Shown: positions 2,643 to 18,822 of the stretch, piece by piece
How the letters are laid out: every line of letters begins with the position of its first letter
Position numbering within the stretch: position 1 is the stretch's first letter
From: Mariniblastus sp.
GTDB lineage: Bacteria > Planctomycetota > Planctomycetia > Pirellulales > Pirellulaceae
DNA: 59,421 nucleotides
Assembly: GCA_023300235.1 (NCBI GenBank)
Contig: JALZWN010000143.1
Location: forward strand, 1-59,421
Direction of reading: 5' to 3'
Notes under the pieces: generated by a model
What the model was told of the DNA's origin: nothing
Seen by the model: only the letters and a program-made list of their open reading frames with translations
The model's database searches: none
Position numbers and translations under genes: made by a program

Positions 2643-4847
2643 CTAGCGTCGTTCGAAGATGCGACGCAGGTTGTCGCCGATGCGAGTTTCTGGTTTGTCG
2701 TTGGTTGGGACCAGAGGAGCCTGAGCGACTAACCGGTCGTCCAATTCTACGCCCAGCCACCCGTCGTGAATCACCAAGCGGGAAATCATTAACGACTGGG
2801 CTTGGGGGCGATCACGGAATTGCTTCGGCAACGCGTTCATTGAGTAGATCGGTTCGAACAGCATCTTCATGACGGTGCTGACCACCGCTCGATCGCCAAT
2901 GCGAAGTCGTTTGCCGCGGCTGGTGACGCGTGTTCCCGAATCGTCTTGGACCAATCGGATTTGCATGCCGTCGGCTTGGATCTCGTAAGCAGCGGTCATC
3001 GATAGGCGACGTATTGGTTTGGCTGATCCACCGACTTGTAACGAGTCCATGTTGATGACGAATTTGATTCGGTTGTCTTCAAAGTCGATGCGGATCGGAT
3101 CGTGGGATGCGAATTTGAATTGGGCGTCTTTCTGTTCGTTGTCGGATTGCGCCTTTGCTTTGATTCCAATTACCTGTTTCAGGTGTGCGGCTAGTTCTTG
3201 GCTGTTGAACGATTCCCCATTTAGACCAAAGCGAGCGATGGCGTTGTTGATCAAAGACTGGTGCAATTGGATTGCGACCATCGATTGGTCGGTGGTTGCG
3301 GGGCGAGCGGTGTTGGCGGCCATTTGCTCGCTGCCGGCAAGGCGATAGCGAACGATGATCTCCGAGTTGGTGGTGGCAAGTTGCATCGGAGTCGGTTCTA
3401 GGTCCAACGCAATCAAAGGCTCCAGCAAGTTGTCGTTGGCGGACTGGCGGACAGTTTTGATTCCTTTGGCGATTTCCTCTTCGACGCGTGCCTCGGCAGC
3501 CTGGGATACTTTCCGGCGGAACAACTGGTTGGTTTCGGAGGATTGCTCGCGGACCTTTTTCGTGGCGACGCGGCGAGCGATGTTACCAAAAACTGGTACG
3601 TTATCGATCTTGGACTGAATGCCAACTAGCAACTGTTTGGCGTTCGAAGTTGAGTACGCTTCTTTGCTCGCGTCGATGCCGTTGGCGTCAACGGTGATTT
3701 CTTTGTAAACCAAAAAGTTGGCTTGGCCTTGGCTCATGATACGGAAGCCTTTGGTCTTCGCAACGGTTTTTGACTGCACGTGTCCGTTGGTTTGAATCTG
3801 AAAGTTGAGCCGATTTTCGTCTGGGATCAACGCGACATTCAATTCGTTACTGACTTGGCTGCTACCCGATATTTTGGCGCCTTGGATAGTTTCGGATACC
3901 GGTTCGGCGATGGTCGGCAGTTGAGGAAGCAAGCGATTCATGAAGGCTTCCGAGATTGTCAAACGAAAGTTCGCATTGCGGTAGTGGCTTTGGATCGCTT
4001 GGGCGGCTTGTTGGTAAGCCGGGTCGTTCGACCAAAGCAAGTCTTGGACGGTGTCGTTGAGCAGGTAGCCGCTACGAGAACTTGGCTGCGTCTCGTACAG
4101 CTCCAAACGGTTGGCAAGATTGGACGGATCGACTTTCCGGCTGGCGTGCGATTTCAACAGCTGAAGGTCGCCCTCAGAGAATAATGCTTGAACGTAGTTG
4201 GATTGAGTTGTTTGGAGTGAGGGTGAATAAATCCGGGTCAACGTTTTGCGAGCGGCCAAACGTTTTGCTTTTTCGTCGTCTTCGGCTGCGAAAGCGGTTC
4301 GGAGTTCGTCGAGCTTGAGGTATTCGGACCACTCTGCTGCAACGCCGCGTAGCTGAAGATGAACCGCTGCTTGAGATGGGGGGGTGTGGTCGCTGGCGGT
4401 CGCGTCGAATTTGGCCAGTGCCGACCATGTGGTGATGCGGCGGGCGAGTTGGTACTGGAGTTTCTGAAGCTGAGCCCAGGCCAACTGGCGATCGTTCGCT
4501 GACGAGATTGATTGCGAAATGTTGTGGTACAGCCGGTCGATGCTGAGCCGCTGTTGTTCCAGCCGAGCGATACGGGTAAGTCGCTGCTGCGGAGACAGGT
4601 CGCCGGCAGTGGCGGATTCAAGAACTTGCTTGGTTTGAGCGGCCCATTGGGCGACAGCAGGGTGCTCGGCCAGATGGTCGATTGTTTCGCTCAACAGCTT
4701 CGTTGAAACCCACGGCTTGGGTTCGCTCTGTGGAGCGGCCAAAGCGGCGCTGAACGCGGAAAGGGCTAGCGATAGCCCGATGATGCTAGCAAGCAGCAAG
4801 CGGGCAGGCGATAAAATGATCTTCGGTCGTTGAGAGGTGATTTTCAA
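2643..4847 (-). CDS. Secreted protein of unknown function, 734 aa
   Basis: I do not recognise a characterised family. The first 38 residues are a signal peptide (basic n-region, LLLASIIGLSLALSAFSAALA core, AxA cleavage), so the product is exported. The rest is soluble-looking, rich in Gln, Ala and Arg. It is helical in the first half (residues 40-330) and beta-rich and polar near residues 320-420 and 590-690. No catalytic motif or transmembrane segment was seen after the signal. The start codon is TTG, supported by a GGAGAA ribosome-binding site six bases upstream on the minus strand. The gene stands alone, convergent with the FG-GAP/PQQ gene. The frame is long and has a good signal peptide and ribosome site, so it is surely a gene; its function is open. 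Confidence 0.85.
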   Translation of the reverse strand: MKITSQRPKIILSPARLLLASIIGLSLALSAFSAALAAPQSEPKPWVSTKLLSETIDHLAEHPAVAQWAAQTKQVLESATAGDLSPQQRLTRIARLEQQRLSIDRLYHNISQSISSANDRQLAWAQLQKLQYQLARRITTWSALAKFDATASDHTPPSQAAVHLQLRGVAAEWSEYLKLDELRTAFAAEDDEKAKRLAARKTLTRIYSPSLQTTQSNYVQALFSEGDLQLLKSHASRKVDPSNLANRLELYETQPSSRSGYLLNDTVQDLLWSNDPAYQQAAQAIQSHYRNANFRLTISEAFMNRLLPQLPTIAEPVSETIQGAKISGSSQVSNELNVALIPDENRLNFQIQTNGHVQSKTVAKTKGFRIMSQGQANFLVYKEITVDANGIDASKEAYSTSNAKQLLVGIQSKIDNVPVFGNIARRVATKKVREQSSETNQLFRRKVSQAAEARVEEEIAKGIKTVRQSANDNLLEPLIALDLEPTPMQLATTNSEIIVRYRLAGSEQMAANTARPATTDQSMVAIQLHQSLINNAIARFGLNGESFNSQELAAHLKQVIGIKAKAQSDNEQKDAQFKFASHDPIRIDFEDNRIKFVINMDSLQVGGSAKPIRRLSMTAAYEIQADGMQIRLVQDDSGTRVTSRGKRLRIGDRAVVSTVMKMLFEPIYSMNALPKQFRDRPQAQSLMISRLVIHDGWLGVELDDRLVAQAPLVPTNDKPETRIGDNLRRIFERR

Positions 4848-5081: not shown

Positions 5082-5720
5082 TTATCGTTTCAGCGTTGCG
5101 ATGACTGCGGGCGAATATTCGCGGATCGCCCAGTCGTCGGCCAAGGGCAAATGGGTGTGCTCAAACCGGCGGTCCGATTCAACCACGAAAATGCTCTCCG
5201 GCGGGGCAAGCGAGATGAGGCTATCGAGCATGGTCATGAGTTCTTCGGTGCGGTCGACAAAGAAATCGTAGGGGGGGCAACAAAAAACCATCCACGGTTC
5301 GGCGGGGTGGTCGGCGGGGTTTTTGACGAACTGTCGCACCCAAAAGAACGTATCAGAGGCATGGACTTGTGCCGCTGCGGCGACGTCGAGTGTTTGAATG
5401 TTTTGCTGGATGATTTTGACGGTTGGAAAGTGGCGTTCGATCATTGTAGCCGCGGTGGCTCCGCGACTGACGGCTTCCAAGCCGATGGCGCCGGTGCCGG
5501 CGAACAGGTCGAAGACGGCTTTTTCTTTGACCCAGCCACCGACTAGGTTAAAAAGGGCTTCGCGAATATTGTCTTTCATGGGCCTGGTGACCGGATCGCC
5601 CGAGTAGTCGATGATTCGCCCACGGAAGGTTCCGCCAATGATGCGGAGTTTCCCTTGCGGCGCTTGGGCTTGGTTGGAGTTCCAGTTTTTCAGGTGTCTG
5701 CCGCGTTTATTTCGAGTCAT
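5082..5720 (-). CDS. rsmD: 16S rRNA (guanine-N2)-methyltransferase, RsmD family
   Basis: RsmD-type enzymes methylate G966 of 16S rRNA with S-adenosylmethionine in the cytoplasm. The 212-residue length fits. Visible family signatures are LRIIGGTFRGRII at the N terminus, the RPMKDNIREALFNL substrate-binding segment, and the SAM-binding glycine motif VFDLFAGTGAIGLEAVSRGA followed by the acidic MIER. The catalytic motif IV, normally (D/N)PP(Y/F), reads CCPPYDFF here, with Cys replacing the Asp. The start is ATG and the gene is single on the minus strand, divergent from the cyclophilin gene. Family assignment is strong; whether the altered motif IV keeps full activity is unknown. Confidence 0.88.
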   Translation of the reverse strand: MTRNKRGRHLKNWNSNQAQAPQGKLRIIGGTFRGRIIDYSGDPVTRPMKDNIREALFNLVGGWVKEKAVFDLFAGTGAIGLEAVSRGATAATMIERHFPTVKIIQQNIQTLDVAAAAQVHASDTFFWVRQFVKNPADHPAEPWMVFCCPPYDFFVDRTEELMTMLDSLISLAPPESIFVVESDRRFEHTHLPLADDWAIREYSPAVIATLKR

Positions 5721-5856
5721 GAAGTTTGTCGCAAGAGTCTTTGAGTGTGGTGAGCGAGTGGTTTGAAGTCGCTTCGCTTCTAATCTTTGAATGTTCGTTA
5801 TACTCTATAGTATTAGTAGTCCATCAAAATAGTATCCCCACTGTTTGAATCAGCTC

Positions 5857-7113
5857 ATGACGTTTTCATTTTCGACCATCAAATTGACGAGTTTGGCTCT
5901 CTTTTTCGCCTGTGTGCTTGGTATCAGCAGCGGTTGGGCTCAGATTATGCAACCGGATGAAAAGCCCGCGCCACCGCCTAAGAACGTGGTCTTGGCGTAT
6001 CCGGTCGGCCAATTGGAAGCGATGTCGTTGGACCAGTTGAATGCCGAATTGGACGGGTTATTGCCTGGTTTTCGTGAGTCTCTGAAGGCCATGTGGGCGG
6101 CCAAAGCCCAGTATCAGCACGCTTCAAAAAACGACTCTTACGGCTACGGCAAGGCTTGGCGGGAGAATGCAACGCTTGGGCAAGTGAGCTACCAAAAGAT
6201 CAAAGAGCTTTCGCTGGAGATTTATCTGAAGGCCCAACAGCCCACTGAGGATCAATTCCGTTTGGCGTTTCAAATGGCGTTAGTGTCCGGCGATGACGGC
6301 CGGATCGGGGCGGCCAATCGCGTGCTGAAAAAAATGCTGGAGCTTCGCCCAGACGATGAGTCGGTTTGGGGGAGTGCCGCTCGGATTGCGGCTTTCACCA
6401 ACGACTATCAAATCGCCGATCGCTTGCTTCAAGAGAAGCCCAAGCTGATCGAAGAATTGCCTCAGCAAGAGACGATTCTGTTTGCGACGCTTAAAGGATT
6501 TGGTGAGCGATGGGAAAAAGAGAAAACGATTCGTGAAGCCGAGGCCAAGGCTGATGATTTGCCGCGAGTTGAGTTCACGACTTCAAAGGGCAAGATCGTG
6601 ATTGAGCTGTTTGAAAATGAAGCCCCTGATACCGTGGGCAACTTTGTTCATTTGGTAGAATCTGGGTTTTACGAGGGTGCTTTCTTTCATCAAGTACTGC
6701 GGAATTTTCGGGCGCAAACTGGGCTGTACTCTAGAAATCGACGTCCGCCGACAGACTATGAGATTACCAGCGAGGCCAAAGCTGACAACGCACGTAAAAT
6801 TTTTCGTGGCACGATCGCGACAATCCCTCGAGGCTTCACCGTCGGTGCTTCGGAATTCAGTATCTATACCGCACCGAATCCGTTTGCGAACGAAGAATAC
6901 GAAGAAACGGTCTTTGGCCGAGTTATCGCGGGGATGGATGTCGTCGATATACTGAAAGTGAACGCTCGTTTTCGCAAAGGTTCGTCCGTCAGTGAGCGTG
7001 TAAATTCGAAGCAAGGCGATATGCCGGACGACTATATCGTGTCCGCAAAAGTTCTCAGGAAGCGGCCGAATGTGGATTATCAGCCAAAAAAACTATCAAC
7101 GAGCAAAAAATAG
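5857..7113 (+). CDS. Exported cyclophilin-like peptidyl-prolyl isomerase, first of tandem pair
   Basis: An exported protein with a C-terminal cyclophilin domain. The ORF track begins at an upstream TTG (5845); the ATG at 5857 gives a cleaner signal peptide (FSFSTIKLTSLALFFACVLG, cleavage after GWAQ). Residues about 40-230 are helical and TPR-like. The cyclophilin fold starts near VEFTTSKGKIVIELFENEAP and runs to GRVIAGMDVVDIL. The canonical FHRV motif is FHQV, so the catalytic arginine (R55 in human CypA numbering) is glutamine, and the QFFI element is degraded to EFSIY. Catalysis may therefore be weak or absent; a periplasmic chaperone or binding role is possible. A similar gene follows after 69 bases on the same strand. 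Confidence 0.85.
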   Translation: MTFSFSTIKLTSLALFFACVLGISSGWAQIMQPDEKPAPPPKNVVLAYPVGQLEAMSLDQLNAELDGLLPGFRESLKAMWAAKAQYQHASKNDSYGYGKAWRENATLGQVSYQKIKELSLEIYLKAQQPTEDQFRLAFQMALVSGDDGRIGAANRVLKKMLELRPDDESVWGSAARIAAFTNDYQIADRLLQEKPKLIEELPQQETILFATLKGFGERWEKEKTIREAEAKADDLPRVEFTTSKGKIVIELFENEAPDTVGNFVHLVESGFYEGAFFHQVLRNFRAQTGLYSRNRRPPTDYEITSEAKADNARKIFRGTIATIPRGFTVGASEFSIYTAPNPFANEEYEETVFGRVIAGMDVVDILKVNARFRKGSSVSERVNSKQGDMPDDYIVSAKVLRKRPNVDYQPKKLSTSKK

Positions 7114-7182
7114 CGTTTCGCTGATTCTGATAAATTCGATATGATTGACGACCGACGCAAACTGTTCCAATAAAGCAAAGCA

Positions 7183-8799
7183 ATGATCAACCCTTCTCAA
7201 GTGAACCTTCGAAATGTTGTTGCGAACTGCCTTACGGTTTCGCTGTTGATATTGCCCAGCTTCGCATCCGCTCAGGGATTGCTTGGGACGCCCAACGATT
7301 CTTCGGGGCTCCAAGTCGAATCTGCGTCTGACCCAGTCGTTCAAGAGCCCACCGTTGTGACGCTTCCGGGAGCGATCTCTGAATTCGGTTCCGCGACCAA
7401 AGAGGCTGGCTCGATGACCAAAGATGCTGCTGGTTCCACAACTAAAACCACCGATGCAACGAACAATGGTGGTGAATCGGAGGACGGGCTGACAGTGGAG
7501 GAACAGCGAGCAGCTTGGAGGGCTGAACTAGAGAAATTGACGTTTGCCGAGATTGTCAAAAAGATTCGCGACGATGAGAGGAAGATTAATTGGCGGTATA
7601 TAAACATCCCGCTAGGGTACGCAGCGAAGCAACGAGAGTTTCAAAATGCGATTAAGGCTTTGAAAGGCGAAGTCGTTGTTTTGAATGAATTGTTGGAGCC
7701 AGCGGCGGTTGAGGCTTTTCGTTCGGATCCGACAGGCAGTCGAGCTGCGGCAGCGAAAGTCTTTGAGGTGCTGGCGAGTAAGTTGTCGCCGCGTGGACGG
7801 GATTCAAGATACGATCCTCAAGAAGGCCTGCGTTTGGTGAACACGATTCTTGAAATCAAAGGCGGCGACATCGGCAAGGATCCGGGAGTTAGGCCGTTGC
7901 CTGAAGACGAATCGTTTATCAATGTGATCTATCAAGGCTACCTGGCGAGCTATGGTCTGCAAGACTTCGAAAGTGCCGAAGCGTTTATTTCGCGGCTAGA
8001 GAATATGGACATCGGGCTAGATCCAGAGGTGCGAAAGAACTTTGATGCAACCGTTGAAGCTTGGGAAGAAGAACAAGCACTGCGGGCCGAAGAGGCGCGA
8101 GTTGATAACTTGCCTCGAGTAAAGTTGGAGACAACTCATGGCGATGTGGTGATTGAGTTATTTGAAAACCAAGCTCCCAATACCGTGGCAAACTTTATCA
8201 AGTTGACCCAGGAAGGCTACTACGATGGTTTGGAGTTCTTCCAAGTTGTGCCCAGCAATTATGCTCGATCTGGCTGTACGACCAACGACGGAACCACACA
8301 TCCAGGCTATCGGATTCGCAATGAGTTTGAAAACGGCCGGAGACATTTTGCTGGAACAGTCGTCATGCAGAATGATGGTGAAGACACCGCTGGGGCCCAG
8401 TTTATTATCCTGCACCGACCGGACCCCAACCTCAAAGAAAAGGTCGTTTCGTTTGGTCGTGTCATCGAAGGACTAGAAAACGTTTACTCTTTTAAAACCG
8501 TAAACCGTATTCGCACTGCTGGTGGTGAGGCAACGATCATTAACAAAGCGACTGTGGTTCGTGCGCCATCGTTCGAGCACAAGCTAGAGACCATCGATGA
8601 TGCCTCGGGGTTGCTATTTGAAGACCCCGACAAGGTTCTACCGAAAGGCTCGTCGTCCCGGACATCAAACAATTCGGTTGCTCGACCTAAATCAAGCTAT
8701 CTTCCGACCACTCTGCCACCAAGTGGATTTTCGGCTCGCCCGGCTGTGGTCCCAAGTGGTTCGGCGAATCGTCCCTCGAGCGGTTCTGGCACTCGTTAG
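7183..8799 (+). CDS. Exported cyclophilin-like peptidyl-prolyl isomerase, second of tandem pair
   Basis: A 538-residue paralogue in architecture of the preceding gene. It has a signal peptide (LTVSLLILPSFASAQG), a Thr/Asp-rich low-complexity linker to about residue 100, a helical middle region, a cyclophilin domain from VKLETTHGDVVIELFENQAP at about residue 310 to GRVIEGLENVYSF, and a Ser/Pro/Arg-rich tail. The FHRV catalytic motif reads FFQV, so both the His and the key Arg are changed. The QFII strand that contacts the substrate is retained. ATG is the first plausible start; no clear Shine-Dalgarno sequence was seen. It is probably cotranscribed with its neighbour. Exported localisation is well supported, enzymatic activity is not. 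Confidence 0.86.
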   Translation: MINPSQVNLRNVVANCLTVSLLILPSFASAQGLLGTPNDSSGLQVESASDPVVQEPTVVTLPGAISEFGSATKEAGSMTKDAAGSTTKTTDATNNGGESEDGLTVEEQRAAWRAELEKLTFAEIVKKIRDDERKINWRYINIPLGYAAKQREFQNAIKALKGEVVVLNELLEPAAVEAFRSDPTGSRAAAAKVFEVLASKLSPRGRDSRYDPQEGLRLVNTILEIKGGDIGKDPGVRPLPEDESFINVIYQGYLASYGLQDFESAEAFISRLENMDIGLDPEVRKNFDATVEAWEEEQALRAEEARVDNLPRVKLETTHGDVVIELFENQAPNTVANFIKLTQEGYYDGLEFFQVVPSNYARSGCTTNDGTTHPGYRIRNEFENGRRHFAGTVVMQNDGEDTAGAQFIILHRPDPNLKEKVVSFGRVIEGLENVYSFKTVNRIRTAGGEATIINKATVVRAPSFEHKLETIDDASGLLFEDPDKVLPKGSSSRTSNNSVARPKSSYLPTTLPPSGFSARPAVVPSGSANRPSSGSGTR

Positions 8800-9146: not shown

Positions 9147-10121
9147 ATGCGATCAAATTCTTCATCGCGAGGTTTTACCCTCGTCGAATTACTCGTGGTC
9201 ATTGCGATTATTGGTATCTTAATCGGGATGTTATTGCCTGCGGTGCAGCAGGTGCGTGAAGCGGCTCGCCGTACTCAGTGCTTGAACAATTGCAAACAAA
9301 TTGGTTTGGCTGCGCTCAATTATGAGAGCGCTCTGATGAGTTACCCTCCGATTGTATTTTCGGTCCCGGGCTCCACCTTGAGAGGCCATTCAACTTGGCT
9401 TCAACTGTTGCCTTACATGGAACAGCAAAGCTTGCAGGACGCGATATACGAACGAGCTCGAAACACTGTGACCGGAAGATCTCTTTTTAATTTGGACCAT
9501 GACACGCCGGTTGAGTTTGATTCTCCTGTATTCCTCCTCTGCCCAAGTATGATCGAAGCAGAGGTTGTAGTGGACGTTGAAGAAGGCAATCCGACCAATC
9601 AATCATCACGCGTCGACTTCTTGCCCGTCATTGGCACTTTTAAGTCACCGTCGGGCAACGGCAGCGGAATTAAAATAACTCCCGGGATTTCCGCTAACTT
9701 TGAACTCGATATTAATTTCTACACTCGGCCCTATAACGGCGTTCCGATAGGTGGTATCACCGACGGTACATCAAACACAATGTACGTTGGTGAGTCCCAA
9801 GGACAGATGTTTGGAAATAGGCGGACACAAGCCTCGAATATTTTCTCAAACACAGGGGCTTCGATCAACTATGGTTCTTTTTTTGGCCCCGGCGTTGACG
9901 CCTTTGTTGGCCTCGAAAATGTCTACCTCAATCCAATAATAACTCCTAGCGGAGATACGGAGCAAGTGTTCGCAGTAGACCAACTTAGCTCGCCACACCC
10001 AGGAACAGTAAATTTTACATTTGGTGATGGATCAACCCACGCTATTCCTCGCAGTACCGACGATGTCGTTTTGGACGGTTTAGCGACCTGTTCTAACGGT
10101 GAAGTTATCGGCGAATTCTAG
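9147..10121 (+). CDS. DUF1559 domain protein with type IV pilin-like N-terminal methylation motif
   Basis: A 324-residue member of the DUF1559 family, which is greatly expanded in planctomycetes. The N terminus has a prepilin peptidase site and hydrophobic helix (RGFTLVELLVVIAIIGILIG), followed by the family's LPAVQQVREAARRTQC segment. The middle is the beta-rich minor-pseudopilin-like domain, and the C terminus carries the H-x9-DG type motif (SSPHPGTVNFTFGDGS). The protein is thus likely processed at the Gly-Phe bond and assembled into, or displayed with, a type II secretion or pilus-like structure. AGGAAG five bases before the ATG confirms the start. A strong terminator follows, then a small lipoprotein gene. 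Function of the family is unknown. Confidence 0.93.
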   Translation: MRSNSSSRGFTLVELLVVIAIIGILIGMLLPAVQQVREAARRTQCLNNCKQIGLAALNYESALMSYPPIVFSVPGSTLRGHSTWLQLLPYMEQQSLQDAIYERARNTVTGRSLFNLDHDTPVEFDSPVFLLCPSMIEAEVVVDVEEGNPTNQSSRVDFLPVIGTFKSPSGNGSGIKITPGISANFELDINFYTRPYNGVPIGGITDGTSNTMYVGESQGQMFGNRRTQASNIFSNTGASINYGSFFGPGVDAFVGLENVYLNPIITPSGDTEQVFAVDQLSSPHPGTVNFTFGDGSTHAIPRSTDDVVLDGLATCSNGEVIGEF

Positions 10122-10461: not shown

Positions 10462-13400
10462 TTATTCTTCTTCCTCGCGACCGATTTGATCGATGATCTT
10501 GTCGTAGTTTTCAAGCGTGGCGTCGGCGGCTCGTTTCAAGCCGTCGGCTTCGGGGAATACTTCCGATAGCTTTAAGATCGGCTCCATCCACGTCTGTAAA
10601 ACCCGGAACTGGTTGCGAATGATGTCCAAGAAGATATTCGGGACCTTGTTGATGATCTCGATCTTCTGCTCCGACGGAGCCATTGCCATTGGGGTTGCAG
10701 CGCCCGGCGATCCACTGGCGGTTGCCGACAGGGCACCCGTTTCTAGCATCGTCTTCATTTGCTCAAGCGACTTATTAAAGCTCGATAGTTCGCTAACCAC
10801 TTGGCCGACTTGGTTCATCGTCGTGGTTTCGGTTTCTGTCGGTGCTTGTTTGGCGGTCAAGTGTTGCACGCCAGTGTCCAACGCCGATCGAATGTGGTGT
10901 AGACCTTCGCTAAAACTGGTTAGCTGCGCAATCACTTGGCCCAGTTGACCGTCGTCGCCGGCGGCACCGAGTACGAGATTCCGTTTGAAGGTCCGTTTGA
11001 TATCAGACCAGCGTGCGAGTTCTTCGCCAGCCAGTTTGCCCGTCAGTTCGCCCAGCTTGAGTAAGTTCGCTTGTGCGCCCGAGGTCAAGGTTTGGGCTTG
11101 GTTTAGGTAGTGACCGTCGATCAAGGTGTCCAGTTCTTGGTCGTTCATGATCGGAGCGATCGCTTCGGAGATTTTGTTCATATCACGATACGAACCTTGC
11201 AGCTTGAACGCCGGTTCGATTCGGTATTCGTCCGCTTGAGCGGCCGAGTCGATGTACTCGCGGTTGACGCGAAGAATTACGTCGCGAGCGATCAGCAATT
11301 TTTTCATCACCGATACGAACTCGTTGATCTCTTCGATCGAGTAGCTGCCTTCGAGCGTTTGCGGTTGGTCGTCGCCCTGTTCGGCCATCTTGATGATCGT
11401 GTAAACGTCGGCACGTGAACGAGAGTTTAAACGAGCCAGCGTCGAGTTGGACGTTAAGCAGTTTTCCAGATAGCTGAGTTCGAACGAACCTTCGTTGCCG
11501 CCGATGACGTCACCCAAGTTGTAGGTGTCCGCACGTGAGGCGAGCATGTCAGGGATCTGGAACTTCTCGCCCGATTCAGTGTACGGGTTACCGGCCATGA
11601 CGACCGCGACTTTGCGACCACGAAGATCGTAAGTCCGCGTCTTGCCGCCGAATACACCTTCGATACGACGCGTGGCGTCACACAACGAGATGAATTTTTG
11701 GAGTAACTCTGGGTTGCAGTGTTGAATGTCGTCCAAGTAGATCATCACGTTGTCGCCCATTTCCAGTGCGAGGTTTAGTTTTTCAACTTCTTCGCGAGCA
11801 CTGGCGTTGGGGGCTTCGGTCGGATCGAGCGAGGTGACTTCGTGGCCGATCGCCGGGCCGTTGATCTTCATGAAGGTAATGCCAAGTCGGTTGGCAATGT
11901 ATTCCATCAACGTCGTTTTACCGTAACCTGGAGGCGATACGAGCAACAGCAAGCCCATCAGGTCGGTACGTTTGTCTTCGCCAACAACGCCGATTTGCTT
12001 GGCGAGGTTCGCACCGACCATTGGCAGGTAGGTGTCGTTGATCAATTGGTTGCGGACAAAACTGGTCAACACGCGTGGCTTGAACTCTTCCAATTTGAGT
12101 TCTTCGCGGCGAGTGTCGATGATTTCCTTTTTCAAGTGCACATAGGCTTCGAAGGCTGGGACCGTCGTTGCTGCAAACAAGTTCAAGCGAACGATGAAGT
12201 CGTTGTAGTCCAGGTGATACGTTTTGCCTTCAACTCGGCGATGGTCGCCCAGCAGGCCCGTGACATTTTGTTCGGGCGAGATGGCGGTGGTGGTTCGTTT
12301 TTCGATGGAACCGTCGACCAGCATCATCGCTACTTCTTCGACGTAGCGAGCGTCTAACGAATCGGTCGATTGGTCAACGAAGGCAGCGATCCATTGCTTG
12401 GCGGCGCCAAAGCGTGCCACGGCGGTCAGTTGACTGCCGTTGATCGCAGCAAATTGGTCGGTCGCTGATTTCTTTTTCAGGAAGGCCAAGAACGAATCCG
12501 CGATGTGCTTCGCGTCTTGACTGCAAGCCAGTTTTTCTTGGGTGGAAAACTGATCAAACAAATAGTTAGCGGCTTCGCTGGCAAATTGATCATTCGCAAA
12601 CGGTTGGCGTTCTAGTTCTTGTTCAATCTCTGCGTGTAGAGCACTGACGTACTTTTGACGGTCGGTGATGTTGCCAAAGACCGTCCGCGCCGATTGGAGG
12701 ACGCTGAATTGGTTTTCCCAATCGGTGCGCCAGTCGGAGCCTTCTTTGATGAGCCAGAAGACGCCGGCCAATGTGCGGGCTTGGGTCGAGTACTTCAACA
12801 AGCCCAAGTTGCGGTCCAGCTTTAACAGTGGCTTGAGGATCTTGGCGGCGTCGTGATCGTGAACACCTTTGACGTAGCCTTCGCTGTATCGCGGGGCCAT
12901 GAAGGCTTGCACCGTTTCGAGAAGCCTCGCATCATCGTCGGCTTCGGTTGGGTCTTCTGATTTTGGTAGTTCAATTTCGCCAGCATTGATTTGATTCAAC
13001 ATCAAGTACGCTAAGTACTCGCCGCGGTAAACTTCGCGGTTTTCAGAAACCACCGGTTGGTTCCAAACGGCCTTCGTTGCCATGAGTTCTGGGTGGGTGA
13101 CTTTTTCGAAGTAGTTCGTACCACTTAAGTGGAAGAACATATCGCCGTCTTTGATGACGGTGGTCAATTCCAAGGCTTGCGTGTTGACCGAGAACTTATG
13201 CTTTCCGAACTGGATGATGTTCTGGCCATCGACGTACAGTTCGTTTTTGTCGCGCAGTTGGCGGACGGTATCTTCGCGAACCGTCTTTAGTCGGCTTTGT
13301 ACATCGTCGACTTTGACCGATTCGCCCATCTTCGCCAGTTTGTCGATGATGTCACGGACCTTGTCGATCATCAAATCACTAGCAAAGTAGCTGTTGATTT

Positions 13401-15801
13401 CGTCAACCGATTCAAAGTTTGAAACGCGAGACGCAATGCCTTTGATGATTCGATCGGCAGCCTGCATCAACGAGGTCGCTCGTTTGTTGCGAGATTCGAC
13501 CAGTTGTAGTTTTTTGGTATCGAAAGCCGCGTAGATCTCTTCACGCTTTTCGGCCAGCTGGATGATAAATTCGTCGAACTCAGCAAACTTGCCTTCGAGT
13601 TCTTCGACTTGCACCATCATCTTGGTTAAGTATTCATCGCAGCGTTCTGGCGAATCGCAAACGTCCAAGTAGTTCACGACCGCTTGGCTGATCAGTTTTA
13701 ACTGGCTGTTAAATTCAGCAGCGCCTTCGACAGACAGCAAGGCCTGTGATTTTTTCTTGAGCGTGGCGCGGGTTTGGTTCAGGCTGGAATAGATCGCTGA
13801 GATGTTGTCGATGATTCGAGTGCGTTGAGTGGCGTCTTCGATCTTCAGGTTGCTGACGATCTCGATCAGCATCTCAAGCTCCCCTGCCCCGGCAGCGATT
13901 TCCTGGTCCAGCTTTTTGGCTTGTAGGCCGGTCTTGAGGGCTTCGATTTGTTGAAGTTGGTCGGCGACACGCTGGGTGTAAGGGGCGAGTGAGTTTTCTT
14001 TGAGCAGGAACTCAACGCAGCGAGTGGACAGTCGGTCTGAGTTTTCAGCAACTTTGGTTTCTAGTGTTGCGACATCTTCGAGGTCGACGTACTTGAGTTC
14101 TTTCAAGCTGATGACTTGGCCGCGCACGGTGCGCAGTTCGGCCAGTGACTGCACAAAGTCGTCGATGTGTTTGAAGTGCCGACTGGTGGCGGTGACGACT
14201 GCATCGGTAGCTGCTTTGGCGACGGTCGCAAACTGTTCGGCAGTGTTCTTGCGAACGCGAACGACTTTGTCGAACTCGTCGACCGCAGCGGTCGCAGCAT
14301 CGCGGATTTGGGACAGCGGTTCTGATAGCTGGAACGTGTTTTCGTCGGTTAACCAGAAGTAGGAGTCTAAGATGTCGGTCGACTTCTTGACCAAGTCCAC
14401 GTACAAACTGGTGTAGCTGTCGTCTTGGTCGATCAGGTTCATGACCTCGTGCGATTCTGACATCGCGCGGACGATTTCTTTGTTGCCAATTTTGTAGACG
14501 TAAGAATCGGTTTGCTCGCCAACCTGAAAGTCTTCGCCAACGTAAGGCGTTTGCCAGACCTGCATCGCGTGGTGCTTTTGCGGATCGACGTCGGATTTGA
14601 AGTAAACCAATTCGCCGTTGTCAAAGATCGAGAAGCCACTGCAAACGATCGGCGTCGCGACGACTTGTTCGATCATGTTGTACGACAGCAAAACCTTTTG
14701 GCCGGTGTCTGGGTTTGAGAAGACGTACAAATAGTCTTCGCCGTTGCTGGCTGCGATGCGGCGTTCAAACTGCAGGTTGCTGACGTTGCTTTCAAAGGTT
14801 TTGAAAACACCGGTCTGCAGGTAATAGCCGTTGGAGAAAATCAGGCCGTGGTCTTCTGGCAAGAAAACACAGGCGTCGGCGATTGAATCCAAGCGTCGAG
14901 CGGTTTGAGTTTTTTCGTTGAAGACGAGGTAGCGATAAGCGTCTTCTTTGAATGGCTTGATCTTGAGCAAGATGATGTTGCCAACGATCGAGTAAAAGTA
15001 CTCGGCGTCGTCGAGCGTTTGATCGGGGTCGTCGACGGGTTCGGCGTAAATTCCGGAGCCGTCTTCGGTGTTGTCTTCGATTTTGATTGTCAGGTCGCCG
15101 CCGACGGTTTCTACAAACACGCGGTCGTCGATCGAAATGTGCGGGTGTTCGCCGTCGCGGTGTAGGTCGCGCTGAGTGCGAATCCATTTGAAATCGTGCT
15201 GGGGTGGTTTGACGATTTCGTGATCGCTGCGGTTGTCGATGTAGGTTAACGTGCCATCATCGCCAACGACAAATTTGAATGATTTGATGTCGGTGTGTGA
15301 TTTTCCGATTTGAAAAACCAGGTGCAAGTGTGGGCCCGCGGTGTAAAACCGTTGGAAGTGGGTGTCTTTGTAGTATTTGTATAGACCTGCGAAGTCCTTT
15401 AGGAACTGGGGATCGCTGAGCAATTCGAGCGATTGCTCGTGCATGCTGCCTTCGGCGAACTTGTAAATGCCAAAGACGTCTGCGAGGTCGGTGGTGGTTT
15501 TCAGGCCCAGGTGGACGTTGTAGCCAAAGATGAATTGTTCGCCCAGCGGGAAGATGTCTTGGGCGACGCAGTTGTTGGCGGTGGTGATCCGCTGAGTTGA
15601 AATCAGTTCGGTGGGGATGCTGCCGAAAACGGATCGGCGTTCCTCGTTCAATAAGCCAAGGCGCGAACGGAGTTCGGTCGCGTACGATTGCAAGCGGCTT
15701 TTGATGATCTCGTAGGTGCCACGTTCTAGCTGCGGTCCGGCGGATGCAGTTTCTTCGACGGGCGTGTCGAGATTTTCAGGTTGGTTTTGATCGGTGGACA
15801 T
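10462..15801 (-). CDS. DUF3686-type AAA+ ATPase (annotated family: ATPase involved in DNA repair), 1779 aa
   Basis: A very large cytoplasmic ATPase. Residues about 20-500 match what I recognise as the DUF3686 region, beta-rich with repeated propeller-like strands. Residues about 500-900 are long coiled coils (Glu/Lys/Gln-rich helices). The AAA+ module of MoxR/dynein-like type is in the last third: Walker A SPPGYGKTTLM near residue 1290, Walker B MIYLDDIQH near 1347, and sensor-1 VVMAGNPYTESG near 1403. A helical tail ends in acidic EEEE. There is no signal peptide or membrane segment. It is third in a minus-strand set after the YqiJ-like and flotillin genes, from which a 217-base structured spacer separates it. 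The DNA-repair label is a family name only; the context suggests membrane-microdomain-linked remodelling. Start ATG at 15801. Confidence 0.9.
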   Translation of the reverse strand: MSTDQNQPENLDTPVEETASAGPQLERGTYEIIKSRLQSYATELRSRLGLLNEERRSVFGSIPTELISTQRITTANNCVAQDIFPLGEQFIFGYNVHLGLKTTTDLADVFGIYKFAEGSMHEQSLELLSDPQFLKDFAGLYKYYKDTHFQRFYTAGPHLHLVFQIGKSHTDIKSFKFVVGDDGTLTYIDNRSDHEIVKPPQHDFKWIRTQRDLHRDGEHPHISIDDRVFVETVGGDLTIKIEDNTEDGSGIYAEPVDDPDQTLDDAEYFYSIVGNIILLKIKPFKEDAYRYLVFNEKTQTARRLDSIADACVFLPEDHGLIFSNGYYLQTGVFKTFESNVSNLQFERRIAASNGEDYLYVFSNPDTGQKVLLSYNMIEQVVATPIVCSGFSIFDNGELVYFKSDVDPQKHHAMQVWQTPYVGEDFQVGEQTDSYVYKIGNKEIVRAMSESHEVMNLIDQDDSYTSLYVDLVKKSTDILDSYFWLTDENTFQLSEPLSQIRDAATAAVDEFDKVVRVRKNTAEQFATVAKAATDAVVTATSRHFKHIDDFVQSLAELRTVRGQVISLKELKYVDLEDVATLETKVAENSDRLSTRCVEFLLKENSLAPYTQRVADQLQQIEALKTGLQAKKLDQEIAAGAGELEMLIEIVSNLKIEDATQRTRIIDNISAIYSSLNQTRATLKKKSQALLSVEGAAEFNSQLKLISQAVVNYLDVCDSPERCDEYLTKMMVQVEELEGKFAEFDEFIIQLAEKREEIYAAFDTKKLQLVESRNKRATSLMQAADRIIKGIASRVSNFESVDEINSYFASDLMIDKVRDIIDKLAKMGESVKVDDVQSRLKTVREDTVRQLRDKNELYVDGQNIIQFGKHKFSVNTQALELTTVIKDGDMFFHLSGTNYFEKVTHPELMATKAVWNQPVVSENREVYRGEYLAYLMLNQINAGEIELPKSEDPTEADDDARLLETVQAFMAPRYSEGYVKGVHDHDAAKILKPLLKLDRNLGLLKYSTQARTLAGVFWLIKEGSDWRTDWENQFSVLQSARTVFGNITDRQKYVSALHAEIEQELERQPFANDQFASEAANYLFDQFSTQEKLACSQDAKHIADSFLAFLKKKSATDQFAAINGSQLTAVARFGAAKQWIAAFVDQSTDSLDARYVEEVAMMLVDGSIEKRTTTAISPEQNVTGLLGDHRRVEGKTYHLDYNDFIVRLNLFAATTVPAFEAYVHLKKEIIDTRREELKLEEFKPRVLTSFVRNQLINDTYLPMVGANLAKQIGVVGEDKRTDLMGLLLLVSPPGYGKTTLMEYIANRLGITFMKINGPAIGHEVTSLDPTEAPNASAREEVEKLNLALEMGDNVMIYLDDIQHCNPELLQKFISLCDATRRIEGVFGGKTRTYDLRGRKVAVVMAGNPYTESGEKFQIPDMLASRADTYNLGDVIGGNEGSFELSYLENCLTSNSTLARLNSRSRADVYTIIKMAEQGDDQPQTLEGSYSIEEINEFVSVMKKLLIARDVILRVNREYIDSAAQADEYRIEPAFKLQGSYRDMNKISEAIAPIMNDQELDTLIDGHYLNQAQTLTSGAQANLLKLGELTGKLAGEELARWSDIKRTFKRNLVLGAAGDDGQLGQVIAQLTSFSEGLHHIRSALDTGVQHLTAKQAPTETETTTMNQVGQVVSELSSFNKSLEQMKTMLETGALSATASGSPGAATPMAMAPSEQKIEIINKVPNIFLDIIRNQFRVLQTWMEPILKLSEVFPEADGLKRAADATLENYDKIIDQIGREEEE

Positions 15802-15839
15802 GTTATTCAGTCGCTAGTCGGAAAACATTCAGGGCCTCG

Positions 15840-16003
15840 TCACAAACTCGCCTGTCACTGAGCGTAGCGTTGGGCGACAGATGCGAGAAGTTTGTGAAGT
15901 TCGTGAAGTTGAGGCGAAGGGGTTGAAGTGCGTCTTCGGCGACGAATGTCTGGTGTTAAAAACCGGACATCTGGATGCCAGTGTTGAGCCTCGCATTCGT
16001 CGC
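15840..16003 (-). other. Highly structured spacer between flotillin and ATPase genes
   Basis: Two strong foldable units lie in the 217-base spacer. The first is a hairpin with 9-bp perfect outer arms, TCACAAACT (15840-15848) and AGTTTGTGA (15889-15897), continuing inward through CGC/GCG and CTGTC/GACAG with small bulges. The second has 10-bp perfect arms, GCGACGAATG (15939-15948) and CATTCGTCGC (15994-16003). These enclose an 8-bp stem with one wobble (about 15947-15969, competing for two bases) and a CTGG-ATG-CCAG stem (15971-15981), so it can fold as a three-way junction. It starts 15 bases after the flotillin stop in the transcript. No T-run follows, so it is not a simple terminator. It could be an mRNA processing or stability element, an attenuator, or a dispersed palindromic repeat. 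Confidence 0.55.
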
Positions 16004-16018
16004 TCGGGTTAGTACGCG

Positions 16019-18067
16019 CTACGACTTAACCGCTTTGACTGCGTCCAGTATGGTGCCAGCGTTTTGGTCGGCGACTCCCGCACGGCTGGCGGTAGTCATC
16101 AATGATTGCAATTGGCCAAGGACTCCTTTGTCCGAAGTCGATGCCATCATCTTACCGATCAAGACTGCTACTGAAAGGTTTTTCAGGTCTTCTGAGGTCA
16201 CACCGAACATGTCGACGTACTTGGTGATCTGCTCTTGAAGTTGAGCAGGATCGCCGGTGAAGAAGGTATCCTTCACGTCTGAAAGCACTTCGCTGTTGCC
16301 GACCAAGCGATCGACTTGCTTGCCAGCAGTGATCGAGTTGACGATGCTGTCGAAGAACTTGTTGTCGCCGCCGACGATGTCGATGTTGGCATTGACCAAA
16401 GCTTCGGCAATCATCTTGGCTTGAGCTTCGGCGATCAGGCGTTGGGCGTCGATGGCTTGCAGTTCGATGTCCTTTTCCTTGTTCAGCTTGAGCTTGAACT
16501 CTTCGTGCTCGCGTCCGACACCGTCGAACAGCTTCATCGCTTCGGCTTTTTCGGTGATGCCTTGTGCGTCGGCTTTGAACTTCAGTTCAGCAACTTTGGC
16601 TTCGGCAGTACCTTCTTTTTCGATGGCGGCTGCTTTTTCCATGGTAACTTGAGCTTCGGCCAAGCCAAGAGCGGCGGTTTCCGCTTGAGTCGCTTCGGCC
16701 AGCATTTTCTTGGCCTCGGTTTGCTTTTCCGCCGCGGTGCGTTCAGCTTCTGCTCGAACGATCACGGTTTCGGCTTCCAGTTCAGCGGCTTGCTTTTCCG
16801 CTTCGGCTGCTTTGACTTCGGTGACCAGTTTCTGTTCGGCTGCTTCTTCGGCCGCGGTGACTGCGACTTGTTTTTTACGGTCAGCAGCAGCGAATTCGCG
16901 GGTGTCTTTGATCTTTTCTTCTTCTTCGACAACCGTTCGTTCGACCATCACGCGGTCTTTGATCACGTCTTGGATGTTTTTCTTTTCGACTTCGATCGCT
17001 TTTTCTTTTTCGATCTCTGCCAACGTAACGACTCGTTCGCGTTCGGCGATTTCCAAACCACGGTCTTTTTCGACGCGTTCGGTTTCGACGGCGTCGGTTC
17101 GTTCCTTGCTCTTGGCGGCAACGATCACGGCACGCATGCGGTTTTCTTCGGCGATTGCGATTTCTTCGTCGGCAGTGATCCGAGCCAATTCGGATCGCTG
17201 GCGTTCTTGTTCTCTGACGACAGCTGCTTCGGCTTCTTGACGAGCGGTGATTTCAGCGATTTCGCGTTCTTGTTTTTCTTCAGCGTCAACTTGCTGGCGT
17301 TCGAGTTGCAAAATGGCTTCGCGAGCTTCAACGTCTTGTTTCTTGAGTGTCTTTTCTTTTTCGCGAGTAATCTGGTTTGCCAGCGTGATCTCGTGAGAAG
17401 TCAAGTCGGTGATCTTCTTGATACCTTCGGCGTCCAGAACGTTGTTTGGGTTGAGCTTCTCAAGTTCGGTTTGTTCTAAGTAATCGATGGCACAATCGTC
17501 CAGGACGTAACCGTTCAAGTCGGAACCGATAACTTCAAGGATTTTGTTGCGGAACGCTTCGCGGGTATTATAAAGTTCGACAAAATCAAATTGCTTACCC
17601 ACGGTCTTCAGAGCTTCAGAGAACTTAGGCTCAAAAACGCCACGCAGGGATTCTAGATCAGACGCTCGGCGGCAGCCCAGGAAGTTTGCGACGCGTTTGA
17701 CGTCGTCGACTTCTTTGTTCACGCGAACAAAGAAAGCAACCTTGATGTCGGCACGGATGTTGTCTTTACAGATCAACCCGTCGACGCCGCTTCGGTCGAT
17801 TTCGATGCGTTTGACGGAGATGTCCATCATTTCGACGATGTGCAGTACTGGCACGACCATCATTTTGTCAAAGCTGACTTCGGTTCCGCCTTGACCGGTT
17901 TTGATTAACGCCGTTCCTTGGGGAACTTTGCGAAGGCACTTGATGTAGTAGGCGACGAAGCCAAGTCCTAAAATGGTTATTGGAATAGCCACGATCAATA
18001 AAATATCGAAGACTGTTCCGAACCATCCATTAAAAAATATGCCGGCAAAAATAAGTGTGTTATTCAT
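16019..18067 (-). CDS. Flotillin/YqiK-like SPFH-domain membrane protein
   Basis: A 682-residue flotillin. It has an N-terminal hydrophobic anchor at about residues 15-42 (LLIVAIPITILGLGFVAYYI), then an SPFH/band-7 domain at about 45-215 that includes ALIKTGQGGTEVSFD and the IEIDRSGVDGL segment. A very long Ala/Glu/Lys coiled coil follows (about 230-560), then the flotillin C-terminal region with the conserved ALVNANIDIVGG-type motif. Flotillins oligomerise in ordered membrane patches. The length and long coiled coil resemble E. coli YqiK. The ATG overlaps the stop of the upstream YqiJ-like gene by one base, so the two are almost certainly translationally coupled. That pairing is the known YqiJ-YqiK/NfeD-flotillin association. 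Confidence 0.93.
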   Translation of the reverse strand: MNNTLIFAGIFFNGWFGTVFDILLIVAIPITILGLGFVAYYIKCLRKVPQGTALIKTGQGGTEVSFDKMMVVPVLHIVEMMDISVKRIEIDRSGVDGLICKDNIRADIKVAFFVRVNKEVDDVKRVANFLGCRRASDLESLRGVFEPKFSEALKTVGKQFDFVELYNTREAFRNKILEVIGSDLNGYVLDDCAIDYLEQTELEKLNPNNVLDAEGIKKITDLTSHEITLANQITREKEKTLKKQDVEAREAILQLERQQVDAEEKQEREIAEITARQEAEAAVVREQERQRSELARITADEEIAIAEENRMRAVIVAAKSKERTDAVETERVEKDRGLEIAERERVVTLAEIEKEKAIEVEKKNIQDVIKDRVMVERTVVEEEEKIKDTREFAAADRKKQVAVTAAEEAAEQKLVTEVKAAEAEKQAAELEAETVIVRAEAERTAAEKQTEAKKMLAEATQAETAALGLAEAQVTMEKAAAIEKEGTAEAKVAELKFKADAQGITEKAEAMKLFDGVGREHEEFKLKLNKEKDIELQAIDAQRLIAEAQAKMIAEALVNANIDIVGGDNKFFDSIVNSITAGKQVDRLVGNSEVLSDVKDTFFTGDPAQLQEQITKYVDMFGVTSEDLKNLSVAVLIGKMMASTSDKGVLGQLQSLMTTASRAGVADQNAGTILDAVKAVKS

Positions 18068-18807
18068 TAGTTATTCTCCCACTTAGTTTGTTCAACTAAA
18101 AAGGTCCCGTCTTCATGGTTGTAAGAAATGATTTTTGCGACATCACCTTTGGTAAGGCGGTGTCCCGCTGCGACTCTGATGTTTAAAGTTATTTCTGGTT
18201 CGTTGTCTGGTTTGACTTCCATTTGACCGAAACGTTCGGTGACTTTGTCCGTCTTAACTGTGCCCTTCAAGCCGACCATTTTTAAACGGCCGCGATCTTC
18301 AGGGGCTGATTTGCGTCCGATTGCCGCTGCTGGAATCACGACGACTCGTGCGACCAGCAGTGCCACGATGCAGTTGGGGACAAACCAAAGTAACGATAAG
18401 GCAAACGAACCCGTTGGATTAAAAAGTAAATTTAGCGTGACGTTTGAGATCCAAAATCCAAGCATCAGTGCGGTGCCGACGATGACGACCGGTACGTCAC
18501 TCATGTACAAGAACTCAACCAACGGCCGGAGTGGGCTGTTGCCGGCATTGGAGCTTCCTCCTCCGCCATCCAGCTCAATGTCCGCGCCGCCTGCATCCAA
18601 AACGCTACCGCCGGTATCAACTTCGACTTCAGGTGCGACATCCAAGTCGAGATCAATGTCAACGCCGGGATCGACATCGATATCGATATCAAGTGTGTCC
18701 ATGCCTACTACTCCGACGATCATCAACATCCAGTATGCGACAATGGCGGTCATTGCCAGCGTGGGGAAGACGTTGGCTTCGTTGAACAGTAGGTAGATGG
18801 TTTCCAT
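18067..18807 (-). CDS. YqiJ-like (NfeD-related) OB-fold membrane protein
   Basis: An inner-membrane partner of the flotillin. It has a hydrophobic segment near the N terminus (ALTMTAIVAYWMLMIVGVVG region) and two further membrane spans in the middle (VPVVIVGTALMLGFWISNV and SLLWFVPNCIVALLVARVVV). The C-terminal soluble beta domain of about 80 residues fits an OB fold. Between the first and second spans is a striking alternating Asp/Val/Ile/Leu stretch (DTLDIDIDVDPGVDIDLDLD), then a Gly/Ser-rich hinge. The ORF track starts at TTG 18822; I prefer ATG 18807 (METIYLLF), although neither has a clear ribosome site. The one-base TAATG overlap with the flotillin gene indicates an operon. Confidence 0.82.
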   Translation of the reverse strand: METIYLLFNEANVFPTLAMTAIVAYWMLMIVGVVGMDTLDIDIDVDPGVDIDLDLDVAPEVEVDTGGSVLDAGGADIELDGGGGSSNAGNSPLRPLVEFLYMSDVPVVIVGTALMLGFWISNVTLNLLFNPTGSFALSLLWFVPNCIVALLVARVVVIPAAAIGRKSAPEDRGRLKMVGLKGTVKTDKVTERFGQMEVKPDNEPEITLNIRVAAGHRLTKGDVAKIISYNHEDGTFLVEQTKWENN

Positions 18808-18822
18808 GTTGGCGGGTAACAA

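Follow-up and report, generated by a model that had tools for sequence, protein, structure and literature searches.

Exported TPR-cyclophilins with degenerate catalytic sites in a paralogue array of Mariniblastus-like Pirellulaceae

The dependence of cyclophilin roles on catalysis is debated, and non-catalytic cyclophilins are known mainly from eukaryotes. Two adjacent genes of the planctomycete Mariniblastus sp. (family Pirellulaceae) bring this problem to the bacterial envelope: both encode exported cyclophilins in which glutamine stands at the place of the catalytic arginine, R55. How much of the catalytic site is left in these proteins, was the arginine lost once or twice, and what could such proteins do in the cell? 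The genes lie in a 59,421-nucleotide stretch of DNA analysed as a whole (hereinafter, the window), which is contig C143 of a fragmented, metagenome-type assembly (4.73 Mb in 311 contigs). Our literature searches on planctomycete cyclophilins found no work, and those on pseudoenzyme cyclophilins found nothing directly relevant.

Domain layout and catalytic site

The two genes are arranged in tandem, with 69 nt between them, and their products, P0001 and P0002, have the following layout (positions in the window):

5857..7113, + strand: gene of P0001, type A exported TPR-cyclophilin, 418 aa (open reading frame; type from the N-terminal model and full-length tree)
5857..5940, + strand: probable Sec signal peptide of P0001, residues 1-28, cleavage after GWA (SSGWA/Q; by eye)
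6010..6552, + strand: helical domain of P0001, residues 52-232 (AlphaFold2 model, family profile, weak Pfam TPR matches)
6562..7056, + strand: cyclophilin domain of P0001, about residues 236-400 (Pfam, AlphaFold2 model, structure search)
6691..6693, + strand: CAA codon of Q279 of P0001, at the place of catalytic R55 (alignment)
7183..8799, + strand: gene of P0002, type B exported TPR-cyclophilin, 538 aa (open reading frame; type from the N-terminal model and full-length tree)
7183..7272, + strand: probable Sec signal peptide of P0002, residues 1-30, cleavage after ASA (SFASA/Q; by eye)
7495..8103, + strand: helical domain of P0002, residues 105-307, a homologue of the type A domain (model, profile-profile match)
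8113..8568, + strand: cyclophilin domain of P0002, about residues 311-462 (Pfam, AlphaFold2 model, structure search)
8242..8244, + strand: CAA codon of Q354 of P0002, at the place of catalytic R55 (alignment)
8605..8796, + strand: C-terminal tail of P0002, residues 475-538, probably disordered (pLDDT below 50)

The P0001 gene could alternatively start at 5845, where there is an in-frame TTG. The cyclophilin fold, which a sequence-only reading of this DNA had recognized in both proteins, is indeed kept: both match PF00160 (P0001, E=3.9e-27, 95.9 bits; P0002, E=8.2e-31, 107.8 bits; curated cut-off, 21.7), and the AlphaFold2 models, built from orthologue alignments, consist of an all-helical domain, a long joining helix and then the cyclophilin beta-barrel, with mean pLDDT of 83.0 for P0001 and 74.4 for P0002. 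Both models match solved cyclophilins in a structure search (TM-score on target about 0.8); the top 50 matches of the whole models were to cyclophilin domains only, with none to the helical domain. The same reading described signal peptides and long helical N-terminal extensions, and both are found again, the former by eye and the latter in the AlphaFold2 models, in which the signal-peptide regions form helices (residues 10-27 of P0001 and 9-28 of P0002). Both proteins are presumably periplasmic.

The helical domain is predicted to consist of a long helical hairpin and about two TPR-like hairpins; in the P0001 model, the long hairpin is followed by the TPR-like hairpins (about residues 128-199) and a linking helix. 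We term the domain TPR-like because its family profile (52 members) matches consensus TPR proteins (CTPR3, E=2.8e-10; longer designs, lower E) and single sequences match Pfam TPR models weakly, below the cut-off. Homology links the helical domains of the paralogue types A, B and C, described below, to one another and to those of the remaining family members (hhalign probability, 97-99.8%).

The motif at R55 reads FHQV in P0001 (Q279) and FFQV in P0002 (Q354). Alignment to human CypA bears out the loss of the arginine noted in the earlier reading, with Gln in both proteins and most other pocket residues also lost. In human CypA numbering, the site of P0001 is Q55, F60, R61, Q63, I101, E111, S113, A122 and E126, the changes besides that of R55 being M61R, A101I, Q111E, F113S, L122A and H126E; the site of P0002 is Q55, N60, Y61, R63, Q101, Q111, I113, L122 and V126, with the further changes H54F, F60N, M61Y, Q63R, A101Q, F113I and H126V. 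When nine positions are scored against the human CypA reference (R55, F60, M61, Q63, A101, Q111, F113, L122 and H126), two remain canonical in each protein, namely, F60 and Q63 only in P0001, and Q111 and L122 only in P0002. The Gln at R55 is the lesser share of the change, nearly all of the catalytic site being gone in both proteins. Cyclophilins that lack R55 could keep weak isomerase activity.

The loss of R55 is neither a chance event nor a genome-wide feature because the other cyclophilins of the same genome with a readable site keep R55, and so do 79 of 86 homologues in the rest of the family, from 58 other genomes. The seven R55-less genes elsewhere in the family are single copies read in G006, G013, G023, G028, G037, G092 and G112; in a profile search, these seven genomes and four close relatives were each found to encode one TPR-cyclophilin, besides ordinary cyclophilins. 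A sole TPR-cyclophilin without R55, often with the motif FYQV or FHQV, was seen in several other Pirellulaceae genera (loci L117, L119, L124-L128 and L260). Loci of named planctomycetes, among them Blastopirellula marina, Lacipirellula, Fuerstiella and Planctomicrobium, show the canonical site, which, on the simplest reading of these sequences, is probably the ancestral state. A locus of a Blastopirellula sp. metagenome-assembled genome (L222) holds three TPR-cyclophilins, one dead (LRLM) and two canonical.

The three-gene array and the census of R55

Nearly all Mariniblastus-like Pirellulaceae (28 genomes of the genus group) carry three tandem paralogues, A-B-C. In the genus, the order is divergent rsmD, then A-B-C, then nth, with the gene of a 734-aa protein beside rsmD; the array order is the same in genus g48, and A, B and C are also in order in genome G017. 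The median gaps within the array are 31.5 and 121.5 nt, and such short spacing suggests co-transcription. In the present genome, A and B lie side by side, divergent from rsmD as in the relatives, and the array is broken after B, with the following neighbours:

2643..4847, - strand: gene of a 734-aa protein that matches no Pfam family, a conserved neighbour of rsmD in most arrays of the genus (synteny)
5082..5720, - strand: rsmD-like 16S rRNA methyltransferase gene, the conserved left border of the array (Pfam PF03602, synteny)
9147..10121, + strand: DUF1559 pseudopilin-like gene, where relatives have type C and nth (Pfam PF07596, PF07963, synteny)

Neither type C nor nth follows B here: type C resides on the reverse strand of contig C111, at about 10.0-11.5 kb, and nth on contig C55, near the contig end. 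Given the fragmented, metagenome-type assembly, a misjoin between the type B gene and the DUF1559 gene is possible. A promoter and terminator scan of the locus came out near the shuffle expectation and was uninformative. The 734-aa protein has a signal-like start. Further downstream, positions 10462-18822 (- strand) encode a row of proteins of 1779 aa (AAA-like ATPase region), 682 aa (flotillin-like) and 251 aa (NfeD-like), named by sequence reading.

The assignment of the genes to types comes from models of the N-terminal domains from which the test sequences had been left out. For the N-terminal domain of P0001, the A model gives 119.6 bits and the B model 29.2; for that of P0002, the B model gives 139.5 bits and the A model 8.6; and for the cyclophilin gene on contig C111, the type C model gives 144.6 bits, the next in-array type scoring 7.4. 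This type C copy has a near-intact site (8/9).

The three types differ in what remains of the catalytic site. R55 is kept in 17 of 30 type A, 0 of 29 type B and 27 of 30 type C proteins, and the mean number of canonical positions out of nine is 5.8, 3.5 and 8.6, respectively. The residue at this place in type B is L, Q, Y, F, K, V or W; this variety rules out that Gln is fixed, a point that the sequence-only reading had left to alignment. Of the 29 complete sets, 28 contain one or more copies that have R55 and no fewer than 8 of the 9 site positions, the exception being G134. Type C is dead in G132, G135 and G136, where type A is intact, which indicates that the live role can move between paralogues. 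The dead type C proteins of these related genomes (L156, L158 and L149, respectively) have S55 and R61. A rule that each set retains a live copy fits 28/29 sets, but with so few losses of type C (3/29) the fit is not statistically beyond chance, and live-copy retention is therefore to be read as a pattern only.

Eight type B proteins (L147, L148, L149, L154, L155, L157, L158 and L159) end, after a variable and probably disordered tail, with a short, conserved [SA]FDLL motif a few residues from the C-terminus. The motif, which could serve for docking, is absent from P0002 and from the clade with HLID and LRIQ motifs.

Selection, function and descent

The reading that we consider probable is that P0001 and P0002 are conserved pseudo-isomerases that act as protein-binding scaffolds in the envelope, beside an active paralogue. 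P0001 and P0002 are, respectively, the type A and type B members of the three-member set of exported TPR-cyclophilins of Mariniblastus-like Pirellulaceae; on this reading, the cyclophilin fold would be retained as a protein- or peptide-binding surface, the TPR-like domain would be a scaffold for binding partners, and proline isomerisation would be left to the active paralogue, here type C on another contig.

One line of support is selection on the dead copies. Across eight close species, dead A has a cyclophilin-domain dN/dS of 0.041, dead B of 0.053 and intact C of 0.070, and the array neighbours rsmD and nth give 0.046 and 0.039; all these values are approximate, the median dS being near 1. 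For the window genes themselves the best identities are about 36%, too distant for this test, and the calculation was accordingly run on sister species, which carry other dead residues (HLID..., LRIQ...). In these eight species, the cyclophilin domains of dead A and B are under purifying selection as strong as that on intact C, and neutral decay is excluded. Because the relatives' dead copies are held by selection beside a working copy, binding rather than isomerising is the probable role. The purifying selection on equally degenerate orthologues supports a non-catalytic envelope function, and so does the persistence of a sole R55-less copy in several other genera. On these two grounds, the non-catalytic envelope function proposed in the sequence-only reading stands as the best inference. 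Going by the published cases compared below (PPIL2, SDCCAG-10, PPIL4, CYP38, SurA and PpiD-YfgM), P0001 and P0002 are likely to lack isomerase activity and to have a binding or scaffold role in the envelope, and dead A and B presumably cooperate with the active copy. Alternatively, the dead cyclophilin domain might bind nothing itself and only cap the TPR domain structurally.

A more specific proposal, which we put forward tentatively and regard as rather doubtful, is that an envelope folding complex has type B as its obligate dead subunit: this lineage would have lost the catalytic arginine before the genus diversified and would have been kept from then on as the non-catalytic partner of an active sister. 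If this were so, type B and its active sister would form a bacterial pseudoenzyme-enzyme pair of cyclophilins.

Three other explanations have to be weighed against conserved pseudo-isomerases. An unlikely one is a hetero-oligomer of A, B and C in which the dead subunits position clients for a single live subunit. The conserved order and close spacing of the three genes, the live copy in 28/29 complete sets and the TPR-like domains as possible assembly surfaces are compatible with such an assembly, but C is unlinked in this genome, several other genera manage with one dead copy alone and, with type C lost in 3/29 sets, the retention of a live copy is not statistically beyond chance. Also improbable, for these window genes, is relaxed decay, whereby the catalysis of A and B is no longer maintained in the presence of the active paralogue and the genes are heading for loss. 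Site substitutions do differ among lineages, the branches of the window A and B are long (about 1.0 vs 0.5 for C of the same genome) and the array is broken up in this genome; nevertheless, the open frames are full-length, the folds are well predicted, dN/dS on the dead domains of the close species is 0.04-0.05 and type B is present, always without R55, in 29/29 readable genomes of more than one genus. Still less credible is that a different residue sustains catalysis, for example, a basic one moved to position 60, 61 or 63 (R285 in P0001, R362 in P0002), with altered substrate preference. K or R occurs at these positions in 11 of 31 R55-less motif types, including those of both window proteins, and in 0 of 13 R55-bearing ones, but by our own estimate (not simulated) random replacement at three sites would yield a similar share, about a third, so that we do not count it as evidence; moreover, such a residue is absent from many dead copies, and the losses extend to F113, A101, H126 and, partly, Q63 and Q111.

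The sequence-only reading took the same loss in adjacent genes as a sign of shared descent, and this view fails. In the full-length tree, P0001 falls within starred type A sets and P0002 within a starred type B set, and constraining them to be sisters costs 77.7 log-likelihood units (p-AU 0.0008); the cyclophilin domain alone, too short and too fast-evolving, leaves their pairing undecided (p-AU 0.55). Given this tree and the N-terminal typing, P0001 and P0002 are old paralogues, each of which lost the arginine separately; as R55 is often still present in type A orthologues, the change from R to Q in P0001 is lineage-specific. At least 7 changes between R and not-R are required on quick trees. 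A single recent duplication of one dead gene, to which we attach almost no credence, would account for the shared residue (Gln, codon CAA) and the adjacency, and the cyclophilin domain on its own permits the pairing, but it is ruled out by the clearly different types of the N-terminal domains and the full-length trees, and the sister species hold both types in the same order with other residues.

If conserved pseudo-isomerases are the correct reading, catalysis has been repeatedly removed from the same exported bacterial protein, with the fold held by selection and live and dead paralogues in one array. How far cyclophilin roles depend on catalysis could then be tested by removing genes in this family, of which many members have been sequenced. 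A family-wide set of planctomycete envelope proteins that have been little studied also emerges from the survey.

Comparison with known systems

Periplasmic folding factors of the isomerase class provide one parallel: SurA includes an isomerase domain that is inactive, and PpiD has the TPR protein YfgM as its partner (PMC9643414). Unlike P0001 and P0002, these have the parvulin fold and unrelated sequences, and in PpiD-YfgM the TPR and the isomerase are on separate chains. Cyp40, like P0001 and P0002, joins a cyclophilin to a TPR domain, but the cyclophilin comes first and the TPR last, and the protein is cytosolic, active and Hsp90-binding (PMC4721547). Divergent pockets in cyclophilin folds are found in human PPIL2, PPIL6, SDCCAG-10/CWC27 and PPIL4, of which PPIL2 and SDCCAG-10/CWC27 bind peptide without measurable catalysis and PPIL4 has Asn at R55 (PMC2911226). 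The human non-catalytic cyclophilins are, however, mostly nuclear or spliceosomal, with other partner domains and no exported TPR-like domain.

In architecture only, the two proteins resemble CYP38/TLP40 of the plant thylakoid lumen, which is exported and has a divergent cyclophilin domain after a helical bundle at the N-terminus; no isomerase activity was measured for it, and it binds its client through the cyclophilin domain (PMC7959726). In contrast to P0001 and P0002, CYP38 keeps R290, F294, Q372 and F374 (PMC7959726), and it is not part of a tandem set with an active paralogue of the kind seen in the Pirellulaceae array. CYP38 is absent among the matches listed (60 of 135) for the helical-domain profile against solved structures.

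The nearest bacterial cyclophilin precedent that we found is AquaCyp300 of marine Alphaproteobacteria, with 6/9 site positions changed and lower activity (PMC4898713). Like the Pirellulaceae set, the AquaCyps are exported bacterial cyclophilins with extra domains and paired paralogues (PMC4898713). Unlike P0001 and P0002, AquaCyp300 keeps R55, F60 and Q63, and the NIC domain of the AquaCyps is made up of extensions at both termini together with a 40-50 residue insertion rather than of TPR-like helices (PMC4898713). An insertion of this kind, between beta-strands 4 and 5, is absent from the window proteins, in which positions 63 to 101 span 36 residues (P0001) and 34 residues (P0002), against 38 in CypA. 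Non-catalytic cyclophilins are thus already known; what is unusual in the Pirellulaceae is a conserved bacterial array that combines live and dead exported paralogues.
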